From a virus, in IMG/VR virus record IMGVR_UViG_3300020194_001722, positions 1 through 30,498 of that record: a stretch of 30,498 bases of DNA, one strand, 5' to 3'. This document shows positions 6,751 to 24,709 of this stretch, one piece after another. The notes beneath the pieces are model-generated. The model had not been told where the DNA came from. It saw only the letters and a program-made list of their open reading frames with translations, and did not search any database. The position numbers and the translations under genes were made by a program. How positions within the stretch are numbered: the first letter of the stretch is position 1; the number at the start of each line of letters is the position of its first letter.

Positions 6751-8349
6751 TTATGCCAAGATTGTGGTCTGGTAATCTATTGTTGCCGCGGTACCTGTGT
6801 TGGTAGTTGTGAATTTCAATGCGACAGTTTCTGATCCTGCGGTAGAATCTTTGTCGTCAAGTGCGGCAGTAAGTTCAACACCCACGTCACTTCCGCTTTC
6901 AGTGTATGTGTCGTCGTAACTGACACCGTTGGTAGAAGCACTTATAACAAGTTCTCCTGTCCTGTCCAGTGTACCCCTAACAATTTTGTAAACAACTTTC
7001 AATCCTTTACCTGCTAGTGCTGGGTATTCATTGATCGTAGTGGCCGACGATGTGTTGTCTGCAAGAGTTTGTGATTTTATTGCTTTGGCTTGTATTCCTA
7101 TACCTTGTAATTCTGGTGCGGCGTTTAAGTTTGAACTACCGTCTGATCTACGTAGGTCTGATCTTTCAAAGAAGTCCATCACAGACGAGCATTCGTCATT
7201 GTCGTACTGTATCACAGGAACTTCATTAAACGTGCCGGTGCCTTCAAAGTTGTTGGCCACAGTGCTGGCGTACCAGTTGCCTTGTGATATGATATTTCTT
7301 GGTCCAACACCGGCATCAGCACCTGCTGTGGGCTTGACATAGATTGCCTGTTGTCCAATGTCACTCCAACTCGAACTTGTGAAATGTACATCTCTTGGTC
7401 CATTTATTGAACCTGCTGTACTACCATCCATCTCTGCCCCTAACAATGCTCCGTAGTAGGCAGTTGAAAAGTCACAGTCGTGGAATCTGATGTGTGTTGA
7501 ATCATCACTGATGTCTACCAACCTAGCAAATTTTGTGAACTGACATTGATTGAATACCACATTGGTAGTAGAGTACACTGATGTTGACTCGGTTACTGTT
7601 ATACCCTTTGACGTGCTGGCATCTGAACCACCTGATGCGTAAGATCCTTGGAACTTGACATTGTTGAAATATGCTTTTGTAACTCTGTCCAATGATATCC
7701 CTCCATAAGCAACTGTGTTCCTTAAAGTCATGTTTGAAATCTGTATCTGTGTTGGTGTTGTGGCACTGGAGTTACCTATGTTTACTCCAACGTTGCCTTC
7801 ATCATCTTGTGTGACCATTACGGCGTTGTTGCCTGAATTCCTTATTATGGTCTTGTCCGGACCTTCACCTACCAAGTGTGCGTATGGTGGTATCTTCAGT
7901 GCGGCATTGATCCTGTAAGTGCCTGCCGGGAAGAAAAGCACCCTCCTTGCCCTTGTGTCGTCTTTATCTGTGTCCGTGTAAAGTTCGTCTATCGCATTTT
8001 GTATCGCTGTAATGTCCGCTGTTGAGTCATCGCCTGCGGCACCAAAGTCTTTGACTGACACGTAATCATCTAATCTCTGTTGAAGAGTTCTCTGTTGGCT
8101 TGTACCTACAGGTGTGCTGTCTCCTAGGTACCCTTGGTATGTGTGGTTAAGTGCTGTCGTGAATGCTGAACTTCCTGATGTGACTATCTCCGTGTTGCCC
8201 ACTGCTGGAGCACCGTCTGCCACTGTGCCGTTTCCAATGAACAATCGCTGTTCGTCTATGACCCAACCCAGTTCTCCCGCGGCCAGTTGCGGTAGATCTG
8301 TTCGTTTTCCACGTCTGTGCTGTATTCTTGATATCTGTACTATCGGCAT
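6751..8349 (-). CDS. Tail fibre or tailspike protein with pectin-lyase-type beta-helix
   Basis: A 532-residue protein. The first 45 or so residues (RIQHRRGKRTDLPQLAAGELGW) resemble the N-terminal attachment segment of many T4-like phage fibre and structural proteins. From about 95 comes the pectate-lyase/glycosyl-hydrolase-28-like opening (VSVKDFGAAGDDSTADITAIQNAI is the recognisable start), then FPAGTYRI and repeated short beta turns typical of a right-handed parallel beta-helix up to about 400. The C-terminal 130 residues are Ser/Thr-rich and beta-like. It probably sits at the tail tip and binds or cuts host surface glycan. No catalytic residues can be assigned. It is preceded by an AATAAATA late box. 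Confidence 0.85.
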   Translation of the reverse strand: MPIVQISRIQHRRGKRTDLPQLAAGELGWVIDEQRLFIGNGTVADGAPAVGNTEIVTSGSSAFTTALNHTYQGYLGDSTPVGTSQQRTLQQRLDDYVSVKDFGAAGDDSTADITAIQNAIDELYTDTDKDDTRARRVLFFPAGTYRINAALKIPPYAHLVGEGPDKTIIRNSGNNAVMVTQDDEGNVGVNIGNSSATTPTQIQISNMTLRNTVAYGGISLDRVTKAYFNNVKFQGSYASGGSDASTSKGITVTESTSVYSTTNVVFNQCQFTKFARLVDISDDSTHIRFHDCDFSTAYYGALLGAEMDGSTAGSINGPRDVHFTSSSWSDIGQQAIYVKPTAGADAGVGPRNIISQGNWYASTVANNFEGTGTFNEVPVIQYDNDECSSVMDFFERSDLRRSDGSSNLNAAPELQGIGIQAKAIKSQTLADNTSSATTINEYPALAGKGLKVVYKIVRGTLDRTGELVISASTNGVSYDDTYTESGSDVGVELTAALDDKDSTAGSETVALKFTTTNTGTAATIDYQTTILA

Positions 8350-17164: not shown

Positions 17165-17725
17165 TTATAGTTCCTTGAATTTCTTTAGTATGTCAGTGTT
17201 GGGAAGTTTGGCCTGTAATTGCTGTTGCAGTCTGTGTAGGGTCTGCATCTTCATCTTTGAATCCAACTTCGTATAGTTGGCCACTGCTCGCCTGATGTTC
17301 TTGAGGTTGGCGTCTGTTATGTTAAGTGCCCTCTCAAGATGTGTTAGATTCTTGTAATGATCCTCCCAGGTCCTCAGATACCTCCTCAGTGCCATCACCG
17401 GTAACGGCTGTCTCTGCCTCATGGCCTGTGCCTGGTCCTTGTTCTTGAGCTTCTTGGTTATCTCGGGATCACCCGACACGATGGCCAACATGTTTGATAG
17501 ATCATTGTTGATCATCCTGACTTGGTCGAAAGTTCCCTTGGCCATGGTCTGATCTGCGTATGACTTAGCAAAAACTATTGTGTCCTTGTGTTGGCTCATT
17601 AAGGCCAGTGCGAGGAAACTGAGATATATCCTCTCTGTGACCTCTGGGAAAGTAAATCTCTGCAAGTCACTATGCCGTCTTATTACCTTGCCCTCAGATA
17701 CATACTTTAAAAATGGTGTTAACAT
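17165..17725 (-). CDS. Unknown helical, basic protein
   Basis: A 186-residue, strongly helical and basic protein, not recognised. It opens MLTPFLKYVSEGK and has many Arg and Lys residues plus an end segment rich in Gln, Lys and Leu (MQTLHRLQQQLQAKL). No membrane segments or signal. The frame is open to a GTG at 17767, but a perfect TATAAATA box at 17731-17738 followed by five bases and ATG fixes the start at 17725. A structural or assembly role is suggested by the late box. It starts 19 bases from the divergent plus-strand glycosyltransferase-like gene. Confidence 0.75.
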   Translation of the reverse strand: MLTPFLKYVSEGKVIRRHSDLQRFTFPEVTERIYLSFLALALMSQHKDTIVFAKSYADQTMAKGTFDQVRMINNDLSNMLAIVSGDPEITKKLKNKDQAQAMRQRQPLPVMALRRYLRTWEDHYKNLTHLERALNITDANLKNIRRAVANYTKLDSKMKMQTLHRLQQQLQAKLPNTDILKKFKEL

Positions 17726-17730
17726 ACGGA

Positions 17731-17738
17731 TATTTATA
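17731..17738 (-). promoter_or_regulatory. Perfect T4 late promoter box TATAAATA
   Basis: This is an exact match to the T4 late consensus on the minus strand, five bases (TCCGT) before the ATG at 17725. On the plus strand the same bases read TATTTATA, six bases before the ATG of the divergent gene at 17745, so this 19-base gap may serve both directions. Confidence 0.75.
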
Positions 17739-17744
17739 GGCGAT

Positions 17745-18782
17745 ATGCAACGAAACTTTATTCTCACAGACGTGATGAAGACCGGTGATCACCTCAAACT
17801 GGAACAATTTATTAATTCACACAGTTTATCAGATCAGGCCTTTGATATGACTGGCGAGTATTATACCTTGCACAACTACAACCTAGACAGTTATGATCGC
17901 AAGTTTGCTGTCATAGACATGGGCAAACAGAATTTTCGAATCAAGGATAATAAAGATTTTGTCTTAGAATTACAAAGACGTTGTGAACTATTACACAGCC
18001 AAGGATTTGTGTTTATCAAGGCCAATCCGTGGGAATCACAGGAGAACTGCAAACAGATAGCACAGTTTCCAGAAATAGAAATAAAGCATATCAAGTGGAC
18101 CGGTGGGGTGAGTTGGTTTTGGTGTTTCATGTACAACAAACACAAGAATAATAGATTTAATTTTGATCACCTAAGCAAAAAGTATGACTTCCTGTATCTC
18201 AACAAGGAACCAAGAGCACACAGGCAAAAATTGTATAAGAAATTATTTGACAATGGTATATTAGAAAACAGTCTGCACACACGTTGGCCAGATAGGAAAC
18301 TGCCTGCGGAGTATGAACTGCCATGGGCACAGGACTATCCACGGTACGGCAAGGACCAAGACATGTTCGAGAAGCCATACAACGACACTGCTTGTAGTAT
18401 TATTTCAGAGACCAACGACAACGACTATGAAGTATTCATGACAGAGAAAATATGGAAACCAATCATAGCACAACAATTCTTCGTAGTTCATGGCAATTAC
18501 CTTTACCTACAAAGATTACGAGAAATGGGGTTTAAGACTTTCAACAATTACTTCGAAGAAGCATACGACTTAGACAGAGATCCAGATGTGAGAATTAACA
18601 CCATAGTTGATGTTTGTGACAGGTTACGTGATGCTCCGTGGCAAGACTTTTATCTGCAGAGCCAACTATTAAGACAACACAATTATGATAATTTTTTCAA
18701 TAAAGAGAAATTAAGTTTGGAAGTCAACAAGACCCTAGAACTATTTCTTGAATTTGCTGATACCGGTCAAGTTCCTACGTGA
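17745..18782 (+). CDS. Glycosyltransferase-like protein, paralogue 2 of 3
   Basis: A 345-residue protein from the ATG at 17745 (MQRNFILTD); the open frame extends upstream but lies antisense to the neighbouring gene there. The C-terminal block matches the proteins at 10500-11588 and 26941-27999: IISET near 219-223, TEK at 233-235, QFFVVHGNYLYLQRLREMGFKTF and an EEAYDL segment. The middle (YDFLYLNKEPRAHRQKLY) resembles the start of the second domain in exostosin/fucosyltransferase-like GT-B proteins. Probable sugar transferase with unknown donor. It is isolated on the plus strand, faces the gene at 17165-17725, and its 3' end overlaps the convergent gene at 18741 by 42 bases. Confidence 0.65.
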   Translation: MQRNFILTDVMKTGDHLKLEQFINSHSLSDQAFDMTGEYYTLHNYNLDSYDRKFAVIDMGKQNFRIKDNKDFVLELQRRCELLHSQGFVFIKANPWESQENCKQIAQFPEIEIKHIKWTGGVSWFWCFMYNKHKNNRFNFDHLSKKYDFLYLNKEPRAHRQKLYKKLFDNGILENSLHTRWPDRKLPAEYELPWAQDYPRYGKDQDMFEKPYNDTACSIISETNDNDYEVFMTEKIWKPIIAQQFFVVHGNYLYLQRLREMGFKTFNNYFEEAYDLDRDPDVRINTIVDVCDRLRDAPWQDFYLQSQLLRQHNYDNFFNKEKLSLEVNKTLELFLEFADTGQVPT

Positions 18783-19955
18783 GAATCCCAACCTATCTAC
18801 TAACTTGACAGCATTGCCTGACCTGTCCACAGCAACGAATCCCTCTGGCTCCGTGACAACCAATCCACCGTCGGTTTGTTGGAATGATCCTATGGCCTGT
18901 GCCTGGTTCATCTTCTTGAGAACGAATGCTTTCATGGTCTGCACTGCTTTGTAGAACATCAGCATGGCCTGTAGTGGTTTCTTTGCCCTGTTAAGGAAAA
19001 CGGGCATCTGTTTCATCTTGTCCTGTCTCAGTTGCAAGGCCTTCTGTGCCTTGAGTCCTGACATCTGCTGTTGCATTCTGTCTGCGTAGAACTTCTTGAA
19101 TCCTAGAAGGAACTTGTTGACATCACTTGGCAACTGGCCTTGTTTGACCATTGCGTTGATGTACATCTGGAACATGGGTATGAAGTCTTGGTTCTGTCCC
19201 AACACACTGGATAGGTTTTGTGGAACACCACTTAATAGTGTCTCTAATTTTTCTATTCCGTTATAGAATTGTTTTGTCTCTGCATCTGTGAACTTGGCCG
19301 ACCCTGACACATCTTTGTAAGTGGCATTGTCAAAGAACACATCATTGCTTTTGGCAAATGAACTTATATCTGCTCCGCCTTGTGCGTTCATGTCTGCCAG
19401 GGAGTCACCCACATAAGTTGTGTGGAATATTATGCCAACTTTGGCTCTGTCTATCTGTTTGCCCAATTCACTTGCTTCGGGAACCGCGTAGGTGATTGTG
19501 TTTGGAGTAAATGTTAAATTTGGTTTACCATCAACGTTTTTACGTGTAATGTCTTCGTCAGTGAATAAAAGATCACCTTGCACTACCCCTTGGATGTTTA
19601 GTTTTTTTAGATGGACCAAACACTTGAGCAGTTTCTGTCCCAGGTCGTCCGTTCCGTGATTGTTCGCTATGTCTCGTTTGGTGTAGTTGATTTTTGCGTT
19701 CTTGGCAAACACGGATTTCGTTCCAACAAAGAATTTACCATTGTCTGGATTAGTACCACACACCACAGCAGGGGCACCATCCCACTTGACAGACACACTC
19801 ATTGATTCTGAACTTGTGCCTTTAAGTGTCAATAGTAATCCTCTGAAGTACTCCAGCACTGCTTTACCACCCTCATAGCCGTCAGTGATAACAATGTCCT
19901 CGATGTGTTCCAGGTGCGTCCTTTTGAATTCGGTAAGGACATCTTCTATCAACAT
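18741..19955 (-). CDS. KxDG-motif nucleotidyltransferase/ligase-like protein (DUF6267-like)
   Basis: A 404-residue protein. The N-terminal half has SVKWDGAPAV with K57-W-D-G60, matching motif I (KxDG, the AMP-accepting lysine) of DNA and RNA ligases. VVQGDLLF (124-131) resembles motif III, and VGIIFHTTYVG (173-183) resembles the later strand motifs; GKFFVGTK (73-80) fits the strand after motif I. The C-terminal half is helical, basic and Gln-rich, without a known domain. I recall similar proteins in T4-like marine phages labelled DUF6267; this is from memory. A polynucleotide ligase or related nucleotidyltransferase activity is inferred. It starts two bases after the gene upstream and overlaps a convergent gene by 42 bases. 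Confidence 0.6.
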   Translation of the reverse strand: MLIEDVLTEFKRTHLEHIEDIVITDGYEGGKAVLEYFRGLLLTLKGTSSESMSVSVKWDGAPAVVCGTNPDNGKFFVGTKSVFAKNAKINYTKRDIANNHGTDDLGQKLLKCLVHLKKLNIQGVVQGDLLFTDEDITRKNVDGKPNLTFTPNTITYAVPEASELGKQIDRAKVGIIFHTTYVGDSLADMNAQGGADISSFAKSNDVFFDNATYKDVSGSAKFTDAETKQFYNGIEKLETLLSGVPQNLSSVLGQNQDFIPMFQMYINAMVKQGQLPSDVNKFLLGFKKFYADRMQQQMSGLKAQKALQLRQDKMKQMPVFLNRAKKPLQAMLMFYKAVQTMKAFVLKKMNQAQAIGSFQQTDGGLVVTEPEGFVAVDRSGNAVKLVDRLGFSRRNLTGISKFKK

Positions 19956-19957
19956 TG

Positions 19958-20257
19958 TTAGTCCTCTTGGTATTCGCCGTCTTTTATCTTAAGGATGTTT
20001 TCTTTAATGTCTTTGTTTTCTTTGATTCTTGCGACACCTTTTGTGAATTTAGATGCATCCATGTTTTTCAGTGCAGAGTTAAATTTTTTCTCTAGTTTGA
20101 ACGCTGTGTCTTGATCGAAGTTTTCCCTGATGTAGGTCATCAGCCTGATCGCACTTTCCAGGATGTGAGAGGCCCTGCTTTCCACGACCTCTTCCTTGTC
20201 TCTTCTGAGAGGCATTGAGCTCAGTTCTTCTAATAGACTTTTAGTGTGTTTTTGCAT
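19958..20257 (-). CDS. Small charged helical protein
   Basis: A 99-residue protein, not recognised, made of charged helices (LLEELSSMPLRRDKEEVVES and later KKFNSALKNMDASKF) with an acidic C-terminus (KDGEYQED). No membrane segment. Its stop is two bases before the ATG of the ligase-like gene, so the two are very likely co-translated and may act together. The start is six bases after an AGTAAATA late box. Confidence 0.7.
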   Translation of the reverse strand: MQKHTKSLLEELSSMPLRRDKEEVVESRASHILESAIRLMTYIRENFDQDTAFKLEKKFNSALKNMDASKFTKGVARIKENKDIKENILKIKDGEYQED

Positions 20258-20263
20258 TGTAGG

Positions 20264-20271
20264 TATTTACT
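20264..20271 (-). promoter_or_regulatory. Late promoter box variant AGTAAATA
   Basis: Minus-strand AGTAAATA lies six bases before the ATG at 20257. It would drive the small helical protein and the ligase-like gene as a near-leaderless late transcript. Confidence 0.6.
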
Positions 20272-20997: not shown

Positions 20998-21654
20998 CTA
21001 TATCTTTTTCTTGATGGGCTTCGACAGTATCTCTCTGGTCTGATCTGTCATGACCCCTGTGATTACCAACATGGGTCTGGGCTTGTTGCTGGCGTTTGCG
21101 GTTGCGTGTGGAATGTTCTGCCAATCGAATTTGTGTATGTCTCCTGTTCTCCATCTGTCGAACTGTTCATTTCCATACATCAGGAACTGTCCAGGTTCCC
21201 AGTCCTGTAGCATCACCATTATACGGACAACATTGTTTGGATCAGCATCCAAATCATACAGTTTGTCTATGTGCATGTTCAATACCTCACCTGTGAACTG
21301 CACGTGTAGTTTAGACTTGGTCGATGACAATTCAAAAAAATCTGTCATCTTCTGTAGTGTTGGACATCTTGTAAAATCTTTCAGTCCCCTGTATATGGTC
21401 ATCTTGGGATCAGCACCTGATGTCCTTAGATCATTCTCTTCTGCTTCTACATCGACATTGACGTCTTCCCTGCCTGTGCCTTCCCTACGGTTACCCCAGT
21501 TCAGGGGTTTGGCATCTTCTATAACTGCCTGTAGTTCGGTCTGCCAGCCACCCGTGAACTTGCCCAGATGTTGCACACAGTCTGTGTCCCGGTGCCACTT
21601 GTTGAAGTGATAGTTGCTTCTTGCTCTTGCGTCTTCCCAATTACTTGTAGACAT
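20998..21654 (-). CDS. 2-oxoglutarate/Fe(II)-dependent oxygenase
   Basis: A 218-residue protein. The double-stranded beta-helix core shows the iron triad H128-I-D130 (NMHIDK) and H183 (IPHATAN), with R193 (KPRPMLVITG) as the 2-oxoglutarate ligand, at the spacing usual for the family. It should hydroxylate or otherwise oxidise a substrate using oxygen and 2-oxoglutarate. I chose the ATG at 21654 (MSTSNW), which overlaps the end of the sulfotransferase-like gene by 14 bases; the frame is open to 21702 but that part lies within the previous gene. The same transcript carries tctA, tctC and the sulfotransferase-like gene. Confidence 0.85.
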   Translation of the reverse strand: MSTSNWEDARARSNYHFNKWHRDTDCVQHLGKFTGGWQTELQAVIEDAKPLNWGNRREGTGREDVNVDVEAEENDLRTSGADPKMTIYRGLKDFTRCPTLQKMTDFFELSSTKSKLHVQFTGEVLNMHIDKLYDLDADPNNVVRIMVMLQDWEPGQFLMYGNEQFDRWRTGDIHKFDWQNIPHATANASNKPRPMLVITGVMTDQTREILSKPIKKKI

Positions 21655-22234
21655 ATACTTCGATTCCTTTTGTTTGGTAATCGTGAAATTTTTGATGTTC
21701 ACCCTTTGGCGATTTTATATCAAGCATTTTACACAACTCGATATTGTTACTTACTCTATTAATTTTGTTACTATTGTCTTTTATGAACTGCATTGTGTCT
21801 CGGTTTTCTGCCTGTATGTGTTCCCACATGAGGTCGAGGTTCACAAAGTGTTGGTAGTTTGGATATGTGATTGTGAACTCGCCACACAGTTTCCACCATT
21901 CAAGGCATTCAAAATCGTTCCTGTACACCATGACAATGGGATGGCCTAGATCCTTGAGATGATCCAGCTCGTGTGCAAAGGTGTGTGATTTTATTATCCT
22001 CTTGCCTGTACCTGAGAAAGGCAGATCCCAGTTATCTGGTGTGGCCCTGAACTCCATTCCTGGATCAAAGTAGGCTCCAATGTGCATGAGATGTCTGCGT
22101 CCAGGGGTATCGGCATCGTGCCAGTAGGTTCTTTCTTCTGAATAGTCGGTGTGATCTATGTCCTCACTCCAGTAGATATTCTTGACGACACTACTCCACT
22201 TTGATCCCGGCGCCCCTGTGAACAGTATGTACAT
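21641..22234 (-). CDS. Sulfotransferase-like P-loop protein
   Basis: A 197-residue protein beginning MYILFTGAPGSKWSSV, a strand followed by a Gly/Ser/Lys loop like the 5'-phosphosulfate-binding loop of sulfotransferases. RIIKSHTFAHEL (about 79-90) and IVMVYRND (about 100-107) resemble the catalytic-His and 3'-phosphate-binding (Arg105) segments. If correct it transfers sulfate from PAPS to a sugar or small molecule; a kinase-like P-loop is the alternative. No PAPS synthesis gene is in the window. Its ATG shares one base with the stop of tctC (TAATG), so expression is coupled to the transporter genes. Confidence 0.6.
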   Translation of the reverse strand: MYILFTGAPGSKWSSVVKNIYWSEDIDHTDYSEERTYWHDADTPGRRHLMHIGAYFDPGMEFRATPDNWDLPFSGTGKRIIKSHTFAHELDHLKDLGHPIVMVYRNDFECLEWWKLCGEFTITYPNYQHFVNLDLMWEHIQAENRDTMQFIKDNSNKINRVSNNIELCKMLDIKSPKGEHQKFHDYQTKGIEVYVYK

Positions 22235-23280
22235 TATTTGGTCAGCTCTTCCTTGTAGATCGCATTGTAACCCAACTGATTCTTTCCAAAATCAGACAGT
22301 GTTTTCAATGCACCCGGTGTGATGAATGACTTCAGCGTCCTCACTGCGGCGTCACCCTCTGCACCCGTTCTCCATTCGTACTTGCCGACCTTCTTCTCGA
22401 TTGCGGCCACTGACTCTGGATCCTTGATCATCTTATCGAGTGCGGCCACAAGTTTGTCCTTGTTTGGATTGCCTGTGTTGACCCAGAATGCTTTCTGTAG
22501 TGCATCTCTCCAACTCTTGACAAGTTTGTATGCATCATAGAAGTCACCACTCGGTGCAACTCCATACGTGGATTCATAAAGTGCTTCGAATGTTGGCTCT
22601 GTGAAGTTGGGATCGGCGTCATGCTCGCCCGTTTTCACGTTCAGTAGTCCATGATGAAACCAAGTGTATGCGTCACCCTTGCCTATCACCGGCATCACGT
22701 GTTTCTTGTATGCGGCAGGGTTTTCCCTGGTTGCGTTCAAGTCACCCCTGATGAATGCAAGTCTTCTCTCAGACCCTTTCATTCCTTTGACCCAAACAAT
22801 CTTGTCTTCGAATGTTTTGATAGGATCACCGTCAGGTCCTGTGAGCAACATCACGATGGCCATGATCTCCGGGGTCATTCCAGATCCTGATGGAAACTTT
22901 ATTGGTCCGTTTGTCGTGTCCGCTTTGTTCCTAGCACCCACGATGATGTTGAGGTTCATGTGTCCAATAGATTCCCAATCGAAGTAGTTGTATTCCACAG
23001 GCTCCACAAGGTATGATATACCGTTACCACCATGTGATACCAGTATGGTCTTGTCATCGAACCTCAGTTTGTTTTGGAACTCGTTTGGTCCCAGTTGGTC
23101 TCTTGCTCCTGGCTTGTAGATGAGGTTGATCTTCTCACCTAGGTGTTTCTCCCATTCCGCTACAACTATCTGTGCCCACACAGAAGTTCCACCAGATGGT
23201 TTTTGTGGCACGATCAAGTTGTAATCTGCCAAGGCTGTTGTTGTCATCAACACCAACGCCATTATTGTTTTCTTAAGCAT
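22234..23280 (-). CDS. tctC: Periplasmic solute-binding protein of a tripartite tricarboxylate-type transporter
   Basis: A 348-residue protein with a clear signal peptide: MLKK, a hydrophobic core and an ALA-D cleavage site after about residue 18. The mature start YNLIVPQKPSGGTSVWA and the following YKPGARDQLG segment match the 'Bug'/TctC family opening (VPxxPGGxxD, then (R)PGAxG). It is somewhat longer and more divergent than bacterial TctC proteins (about 320 residues). It should bind a carboxylate-type solute in the periplasm and pass it to TctA; the ligand cannot be read from sequence. It overlaps tctA by eight bases, and GAGGAG 11 bases upstream is a good ribosome site. A bacterial transporter gene in a phage is an auxiliary metabolic gene. 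Confidence 0.85.
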   Translation of the reverse strand: MLKKTIMALVLMTTTALADYNLIVPQKPSGGTSVWAQIVVAEWEKHLGEKINLIYKPGARDQLGPNEFQNKLRFDDKTILVSHGGNGISYLVEPVEYNYFDWESIGHMNLNIIVGARNKADTTNGPIKFPSGSGMTPEIMAIVMLLTGPDGDPIKTFEDKIVWVKGMKGSERRLAFIRGDLNATRENPAAYKKHVMPVIGKGDAYTWFHHGLLNVKTGEHDADPNFTEPTFEALYESTYGVAPSGDFYDAYKLVKSWRDALQKAFWVNTGNPNKDKLVAALDKMIKDPESVAAIEKKVGKYEWRTGAEGDAAVRTLKSFITPGALKTLSDFGKNQLGYNAIYKEELTK

Positions 23281-24709
23281 AGTCTAATCGACTCCTCTTT
23301 GTTATTCCCCAATACAATAATGCAAATACACAAATCATTATGCCAATGAAGATCGGTCTAGTGATCAGATCGTCTACCGTATGCAAGGATGTTAGTTGAT
23401 AAGTGAGGTTGTAAATCCTGTCACTCAATATGAATCCAATCAACAGTGCTGGCCTGCTGACTTGGAATTTTTTACAAAGCACTCCGAATATAGAGAATGC
23501 CAATAGTACCGCTAGGTCTTCCCAACCACCTGTGTATTGCAGGCTCGCCCATACAATAAAGCCAAGTATGATAGGGAAATAGTAAACGTAAGGAATACGT
23601 GTAACCCAACCAGCGAAGTATGCCAGTCCATAACATAAGACAGCAGTTATTATAGTCCCAAGTAGGAACGCATAGGTCATGCTGTCAAATAATTTTTCGT
23701 CGTAGAAAGTGTCTGGAGATCCTAGGTCGATTCCAATGTAAAGCCATAATCCCATGAGGATGGCGGCGAAACTGGCACCAGGGATACCAAACAGCACAGT
23801 GGGAATGAATGAAGATGCCTTCTGTGCGTTGTTGGCCCCTTCTGCACCCACAACACCTTTGACATTGCCAACGCCAAACTTCTCCTTGGGATTGGCCGCC
23901 ACCGTGGCACCGTATGCCAACCAGTCTGCCATTGCTCCACCCAGTCCAGGAAGTAGTCCTATGAAAGAACCTATGAAGCCTCCCCTCACGCTGTCCTTCC
24001 AGCATCTGATAGTGTCCTTTACGCCTTGTTTGAGATCACGCCAACTGCCATGTTCTGCCCGGATCGTTGTTGTCTTCTTCCTGTTGAACCATCCGTCCCA
24101 AAGTTCTGGTATGGCGAAAAGTCCTGCCATGTAAGGTAATATCTGCACACCGTCTTCGAGGTATCGCCAACCCATTGTGAATCTCGGAACGTTGTTGACG
24201 TCAACACCAACCAGTCCAACGGTCACGCCTAAAACGATAGCAAGGAAACTCCTGACATATCGCCTAGTGGATACAAATCCCACGGTGACGAATGCCAACA
24301 GCACCAATGCCCACAGTTCGGGTATGCCCATGTAAATCACAACTTTGGTGTACCATGGCAAGAATAGAAATGTGAGTGATCCCCAGAACAGTCCATTGCA
24401 GGTCGATGAAGTGATTGCGGCACTCAGTGCCCTTGTGGCCTCTCCGTTCTTGGCCATGGGAAAACCATCAACCATCGTGGCGGCCGCGGAGTTGGCTCCT
24501 GGTATGCCTAACAGCACACCTGCAAATGAATCACCGGTTGTTGAGGATGCCACAACTGCCACACAGAATATCACGCCCAGGTAGGGATCTCCCACGAAGT
24601 AAGGCATGACTCCAAATAGTGTGATAAGACCTGTTGTTGCTCCCGCGGCTGGTATTAGGCCAATGATTAAGCCGTAAACAATACCCGCCATTAATATAGC
24701 AAGTTCCAT
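23273..24709 (-). CDS. tctA: Large membrane subunit of a tripartite tricarboxylate-type transporter
   Basis: A 478-residue, very hydrophobic protein with about 10-12 membrane segments and the TctA internal duplication: GLIPAAGATTG near 17-27 in the first half and GLLPGLGGAMADWLAYG in the second. The hallmark GIPGANSAAATMVDGFPMAKNGEATRAL region follows the first, and GAEGANNAQKASSFIPT with FGIPGASFAA follow the second. The length is near normal and no disruption is seen, so it should be functional. It forms the ion-driven channel that takes solute from TctC. The usual small subunit TctB is not recognisable nearby. The ATG at 24709 is 95 bases from a divergent plus-strand membrane protein gene. 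Confidence 0.93.
   Translation of the reverse strand: MELAILMAGIVYGLIIGLIPAAGATTGLITLFGVMPYFVGDPYLGVIFCVAVVASSTTGDSFAGVLLGIPGANSAAATMVDGFPMAKNGEATRALSAAITSSTCNGLFWGSLTFLFLPWYTKVVIYMGIPELWALVLLAFVTVGFVSTRRYVRSFLAIVLGVTVGLVGVDVNNVPRFTMGWRYLEDGVQILPYMAGLFAIPELWDGWFNRKKTTTIRAEHGSWRDLKQGVKDTIRCWKDSVRGGFIGSFIGLLPGLGGAMADWLAYGATVAANPKEKFGVGNVKGVVGAEGANNAQKASSFIPTVLFGIPGASFAAILMGLWLYIGIDLGSPDTFYDEKLFDSMTYAFLLGTIITAVLCYGLAYFAGWVTRIPYVYYFPIILGFIVWASLQYTGGWEDLAVLLAFSIFGVLCKKFQVSRPALLIGFILSDRIYNLTYQLTSLHTVDDLITRPIFIGIMICVFALLYWGITKRSRLDYA

Follow-up and report, generated by a model that had tools for sequence, protein, structure and literature searches.

The RNA ligase of Naegleria gruberi (NgrRnl), which carries an N-terminal OB domain, and the RNA ligases 1 and 2 of phage T4 are the described systems closest to the protein studied here, a 404-aa product of the window, that is the whole 30,498-nt stretch of viral DNA analysed. 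NgrRnl is the best structural match for a compact relative of this protein, shares with the family a K-x-D motif I, and presents the residues of motifs IV and V in the same order; the differences are a helical insert between motifs IIIa and IV, an Asp in place of the motif III Glu, and an identity of 13%. T4 RNA ligase 1 is also close in structure, and a phage Rnl1 of the same family (PF09511), that of Phosso, has the same 13-residue spacing between the Glu of motif IV and the Lys of motif V, but the window protein has no match to this Pfam family, reads KLVDR instead of K-x-K, and lacks a separate C-terminal tRNA domain. The likeness to T4 RNA ligase 2 (PF09414) is likewise structural, but there is no Pfam match and the overall hhalign score does not exceed background.

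A second described system concerns the N-terminus. In T4, according to the available text of PMC9026906, internal proteins reach the prohead by means of leaders of 10-19 residues, which are cleaved after L/I-x-E. Many relatives of the window protein resemble the T4 internal proteins (IPI-III and Alt) in having a short disordered leader that ends in L/I-x-E, whereas the window protein itself fails the stricter leader pattern.

The DUF6267 locus and its conservation

The 404-aa protein is encoded at positions 18741-19955 of the minus strand, and a 99-aa partner at 19958-20257 of the same strand, with 2 nt between the stop of the partner and the start of the larger gene; both ORFs are as a preliminary description of this DNA had reported. 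The larger protein is a full-length member of DUF6267 (PF19782; E 2e-106, 357 bits over residues 13-397, with a curated cut-off of 27 bits) and of phrog_455. Both families are annotated as of unknown function, and the ligase assignment is new here.

Relatives were found by tblastn in 465/50,697 phage records, mostly Synechococcus and Prochlorococcus phages, with 163 covering at least 80% of the query; none was at least 60% identical, in a search from which records very near the window may have been omitted. Six scans of viral contigs gave 454 loci, and the first five yielded 356 full-length ORFs, from which 67 representatives were taken. The resulting alignment (A1) has 67 members, namely the window protein, replacing an identical copy, and the 66 other representatives. 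One relative has a 527-aa form in which an extra N-terminal domain (HFMDRVNDARN) is fused to DUF6267 (L164:3356-4939), and three others (L138, L158, and L168) begin alike.

The invariant columns of A1 include L15, E19, and D20; K57, W58, D59, G60, and P62; F75, F76, and V77; G127 and D128; P151, N152, T153, and I154; H178, T179, and Y181; E371, G372, and V374; K384; and R388, while Q126 is conserved in at least 90% of the 67 members. The first three belong to an N-terminal signature, HLEHIED (residues 14-20, positions 19896-19916, minus strand), of which H14, E16, and H17 are kept in at least 90%. The landmarks on which the preliminary description had based its ligase reading, K57-W-D-G60, Q126-G-D128, and G174-IIFHTTY181, stand at the residues it gave, and a chance origin is excluded because they are conserved in the 67 aligned members. 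K57, on whose conservation that reading had been made to depend, does not vary. Coherently, dN/dS among the 71/80 close relatives with dS >0.05 had a median of 0.032 and a maximum of 0.051, indicating strong purifying selection.

The 3' end of the gene overlaps by 42 nt a 400-aa ORF of the plus strand (17580-18782) that is kept in 80/80 relatives and has no match in Pfam or PHROG; its true start is probably downstream, because the ORF also overlaps 17165-17767 of the minus strand. Elsewhere on the minus strand, the window carries a gene for a TctA tricarboxylate transporter, whose 348-aa neighbour is signal-peptide-like (21641-24709); the two are possibly a phage-borne uptake system, and TctA is present in 29/80 related loci. 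A further protein of this strand (6751-8349) combines an N-terminal domain of the major-tropism-determinant type with a domain resembling pectate lyase.

Predicted fold and ligase-like motifs

The AlphaFold2 model built on A1 (pLDDT 83.7, pTM 0.75) has a disordered start (residues 1-13, pLDDT <50), a strand core, helices at 224-350, and strands at 356-386. Foldseek found no match in the PDB at E 0.001 for this model or for that of a compact relative; thus, the fold assignment rests on the re-alignment of Foldseek candidates with VIA-align 2. For the window model, ligases filled 44 of the 50 listed rows, with a span of 8-404, the other six being helical bundles; the best row had Z 7.3 (rmsd 4.0, 179 aligned), and values below 8 may reflect a common arrangement. 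As a large helical insert can blur structural comparison, we also modelled a naturally compact 296-aa relative, L393 of the P-SSM2 type, from an alignment of 58 rows (A2), with pLDDT 90.5 and pTM 0.85. Here, ligases occupied 50 of 50 listed rows and 14 chains reached Z 8, the first being NgrRnl (Z 8.7, rmsd 3.7, 175 aligned) and T4 Rnl1 scoring 8.3. Under the Z of 8 to which the same caution applies came a fungal tRNA ligase (7.3), T4 Rnl2 (7.2), trypanosome REL1 (7.1), an archaeal RNA ligase (6.2), and human DNA ligase 1 (6.0), so that RNA ligases rank over DNA ligases among the rows listed. A nucleotidyltransferase fold, which the preliminary description had expected of a predicted structure, is present in both models. 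Its reading of the protein as a ligase or related covalent nucleotidyltransferase therefore gains support from the predicted fold and from the invariant K57.

In A1, motifs I, III, IIIa, IV, and V are invariant and follow in that order. Motif I is K57-W-D-G60 (19776-19787, minus strand, as are all the following), K57 being the predicted adenylylated lysine; in A2, the corresponding K35, D37, and G38 are invariant in the 58 rows. Motif III is Q126-G127-D128 (19572-19580), and H178-T-T-Y181 (19413-19424) stands at the position of motif IIIa. Two C-terminal signatures had been overlooked, E371-G-F-V374 (18834-18845) and K384-L-V-D-R388 (18792-18806), with the family forms E-G-F/Y-V and K-L/F-V-D-R. 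Judged by sequence, they correspond to motifs IV and V of ligases. Both lie beyond a basic helical insertion (residues 224-350, positions 18906-19286) that separates motif IIIa from motif IV and is shortened in compact relatives. The protein had been described as having a helical, basic C-terminal half: this holds for the helices at 224-350 (net charge +11 over 224-355) and fails for the last ~45 residues, which are predicted strands bearing the two additional motifs. The chain stops 16 residues past KLVDR, in one helix of the model.

Two motifs deviate from those of ligases. Where motif III usually has Glu, the family has Asp (D128), and the second Lys of motif V is absent, K384-x-x-x-R388 taking the place of K-x-K; these residues are themselves invariant in A1. 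The titles of PDB entries in the VIA-align rows name K170, D172, E227, E312, and K326 as mutated residues of NgrRnl, and these would correspond to K57, D59, D128, E371, and K384, a pairing drawn from order and spacing rather than from a residue-level structural alignment. Furthermore, hhalign of A2 against 22 phage Rnl1 sequences aligned exactly motifs IV-V (EGYV...KLV on EGYIV...KIK) with a probability of 8.0%, compared with 8.9% against a PA5oct/Phosso pair, 1.2% against Rnl2, and at most 0.6% against six control families; with A1, the probabilities were 3.8, 1.5, and 0.2%. The ranking of phage Rnl1 above all six controls is weak and suggestive only.

Against the ligase reading, none of the known ligase families gives a significant match by sequence (Pfam, PDB, Foldseek, and hhalign, the last below 10%). 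A Pfam hmmscan of the 404-aa protein up to E 1 returned DUF6267 alone, with no match to PF09414, PF09511, or PF01068; searches of genomes with the PF09414 and PF09511 profiles gave no match at DUF6267 genes; and PDB sequence and profile searches found no ligase. By profile, the family is thus outside the known ligase families, and by its predicted fold and motifs, it is a new branch of their superfamily. Indeed, because the motifs are invariant and the models re-align to ligases, RNA ligases first, DUF6267 most likely represents a new and distinct branch within the ligase/capping superfamily of covalent nucleotidyltransferases.

On these models, a ligase-type fold and active-site plan is highly probable, and it is likely, with somewhat less assurance, that DUF6267 is an adenylylating enzyme. 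In this reading, ATP (or NAD+) would donate AMP to K57 of KWDG, with D128, H178, E371, and K384 making up the rest of the pocket, and the AMP could then be passed to the 5'-phosphate of a polynucleotide, most likely RNA, for sealing. The basic helical domain between motifs IIIa and IV may stand in for the OB or C-terminal domain with which known ligases hold their substrate. For RNA sealing as the main job, we consider the case evenly balanced. As a whole, we lean toward an adenylylating enzyme of the ligase branch that most likely seals RNA and may be packaged in some phages. Such an assignment would give a testable enzyme class to a family of hitherto unknown function in Pfam and PHROGs, present in hundreds of phage records and many marine viral contigs.

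Gene neighbourhood and alternative functions

The 99-aa partner is a relative of phrog_11854 ("virion structural protein," E 2.5e-14). It precedes DUF6267 in 77/77 window-clade loci with room for it, immediately in 69, while in 8/77, the two genes are 0.66-2.5 kb apart. Of the two-component system proposed earlier, the conserved linkage of the genes holds, and the joint function goes no further than this linkage; translational coupling is suggested by the 2-nt gap in the window and not by the eight relatives with the long one. In some relatives, the gene of a probably amidinotransferase-like protein (L084:4285-5313 and L086:4303-5328) and a second ORF are inserted between the pair. The late-promoter-like box AGTAAATA (20264-20271, minus strand), to which the pair had been assigned, holds up as a conserved element: in the 77/77 relatives where the start of the partner was found, NNTAAATA lies at most 22 nt upstream of it, compared with 6/29 gene starts in the window. 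It differs from TATAAATA by more than one base. In the window clade, DUF6267 may therefore be made late, together with its partner. A module that is always late was not upheld, as TAAATA occurs within 30 nt of the DUF6267 start in 5/79, 14/79, 0/80, 17/50, and 9/79 loci of five groups.

By tblastn, relatives of the partner occur in 25 phage records, several annotated as "virion structural protein" and none from a Kyanoviridae isolate. They sit beside the helicase in jumbo phages: in the six records examined, the relative follows the replicative helicase, either immediately or with one gene in between. PA5oct has the helicase first, then the partner, then two proteins that carry a structural annotation (ESI-MS/MS), and lastly a 446-aa protein with EKIDG, EGYV, and KIVDK; a 446-aa PA5oct protein was also the BFVD match to the window model (E 2.4e-5), and judging by length, it is probably the same KxDG protein. 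The partner of Phosso is followed, two genes on, by a 411-aa protein that contains EKLDG and matches RNA_ligase below threshold (E 0.085). Together with the window clade, these layouts imply that a partner beside a KxDG protein recurs in three distant phage groups.

The best-surviving alternative, which we still consider unlikely, is that these T4-like phages use DUF6267 as their missing replicative or repair DNA ligase, to close nicks in the wake of the gp41 helicase. The available text of a review (PMC2984593) states that cyanomyoviruses lack a homologue of the T4 g30 DNA ligase, unless a distant one has escaped identification; of the two, it holds absence more probable, since the host ligase can substitute. 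In a census of 13 phage records, DUF6267 was found in 11, PF01068 in three (S-CRM01, DLP_6, and PA5oct), and PF09414, PF01653, and PF09511 each in one, Phosso; therefore, 9/11 genomes with DUF6267 have no other ligase in these four families. Moreover, gp43, uvsX, and gp41 lie near DUF6267 in several phages, with gp41 homologues in 200/257 loci outside the window clade that have at least 1 kb upstream. DUF6267 is thus a concrete candidate for the cyanomyovirus ligase, a question that the accessible part of that review leaves open. Against DNA sealing as its function, which seems improbable to us, the closest folds are RNA ligases, S-CRM01 and DLP_6 carry a PF01068 ligase in addition to DUF6267, no helicase gene was seen near the window-clade gene, which stands behind a late-type box, and in S-CREM2, DUF6267 (gp87) is placed just past the tail-fibre genes.

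Somewhat less probable again is that an enzyme of the same fold modifies something else, by protein AMPylation, RNA capping, or NAD-linked chemistry with an NMNAT-like neighbour. Indeed, among loci outside the window clade whose downstream sequence extends for 4 kb or more, 100/105 have an NMNAT/CTP_transf-like gene after DUF6267, and S-PM2 and 3/54 S-CRM01-type loci carry the two as a fusion; in the S-PM2 sequence AJ630128, a frame break splits the fusion (L002:5983-7762), which has a one-piece match in LN828717. In S-ShM2, the CTP_transf gene directly 3' of DUF6267 is T4-GC190, according to the available part of PMC3037559 a cyanophage core gene whose product was found in S-SM1 virions by mass spectrometry. 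A P-loop kinase (AAA_33/Zeta_toxin) is present in 14/22 and 16/23 loci of two groups (30/45), some of the matches probably being CTP_transf-kinase fusions because the same N-termini occur in both lists. The unusual motifs III and V would also suit another substrate. Conversely, the NMNAT/CTP_transf-like gene occurs in none of the window-clade loci whose downstream sequence reaches 4 kb or more (0/56), a search of the window record, itself a fragment, did not find it, and the rows listed by VIA-align for the compact relative are ligases, with neither capping enzymes nor folds of another kind among them.

A ligase fold that has lost catalysis and serves as a virion or scaffold protein, suggested by the virion structural annotation of the partner's relatives and neighbours, is very improbable, as the 67 diverse members all keep the catalytic-type residues unchanged and DUF6267 (gp87) went undetected in the S-CREM2 virion proteome, in its available form the sole proteome where the family could be placed.

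N-terminal leaders and possible packaging

The preferred reading, an RNA-sealing enzyme of the ligase branch, includes possible packaging in some phages. Residues 1-9 of the window protein (19929-19955, minus strand) form a predicted disordered leader ending in L7-T8-E9, which resembles a prohead-protease L/I-x-E site and is kept as L-x-E across relatives; the strict hydrophobic-spacing pattern failed. At least 9 residues precede HLEH in 46/67 representatives, and [LIVM]xE occurs in 46/46 of these (shuffles: mean 19.7, maximum 30, 2,000 trials), with the strict pattern fitting 20/46 (shuffles: 0.18, maximum 3), counts inflated by the shared ancestry of the representatives. In the Melnitz-2 genome, leader-like N-termini were found in 11/184 ORFs (longest start), compared with 7.2 +/- 2.6 in shuffles (maximum 16), a weak enrichment, and four consecutive genes of the module match the pattern.

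Then, we considered the virion proteome of S-CREM2, whose authors, in the available part of their report (PMC10665884), already propose that the virion may bring in enzymes of this kind and deliver them. In the protein list accessible there, the detected proteins with a strict-pattern start are an SAM hydrolase, an APH-like kinase, a cytidylyltransferase, and two hypothetical proteins. This amounts to 5/49 detected vs 2/156 undetected proteins (Fisher p 0.009, an optimistic value because the strict pattern was written after the N-termini had been inspected), 49 of the 52 detected proteins being covered and three lying outside the genome stretches compared. A looser pattern gave 6/49 vs 8/156 (p 0.086, above 0.05). 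The DUF6267 of S-CREM2, a compact form without leader, is absent from the virion protein list in this available form.

A resemblance in sequence to the T4 capsid-targeting peptides is thus seen at the N-termini of many DUF6267 proteins and of neighbours that mass spectrometry detected in virions. By analogy with T4, it is conceivable, though rather doubtful, that some phages at least package and inject DUF6267. In several heterotroph phages, a protein with such a leader may enter the capsid and become active as the next infection begins. Packaging is thus plausible for leader-bearing members; for the window protein, which has only the L-x-E part and fails the strict pattern, it is less likely still. 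If it occurs, a packed ligase could seal RNA breaks (or nicks at genome ends) ahead of any phage gene expression, and the capsid-targeting code may explain enzymes that recur in cyanophage virion proteomes, as far as the available parts of PMC3037559 and PMC10665884 describe them.

A broader scenario joins these elements: marine T4-like phages would use a T4-style peptide to pack a ligase, which would be injected alongside an NMNAT-like enzyme and kinases, the leaderless cyanophage form being the ligase that surveys missed. We regard it as unlikely; if true, DUF6267 would be both the long-missing ligase of these marine phages and an injected enzyme. Literature searches, mostly outside subscription journals, returned no earlier report of DUF6267 as a ligase or of capsid targeting in cyanophages.

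Finally, a Cas9-like nuclease among the virion proteins listed in the available S-CREM2 data (gp12, L474:4705-7314) has a leader-like RFASFMAE ~18 residues into the sequence, and its start may be mis-called.
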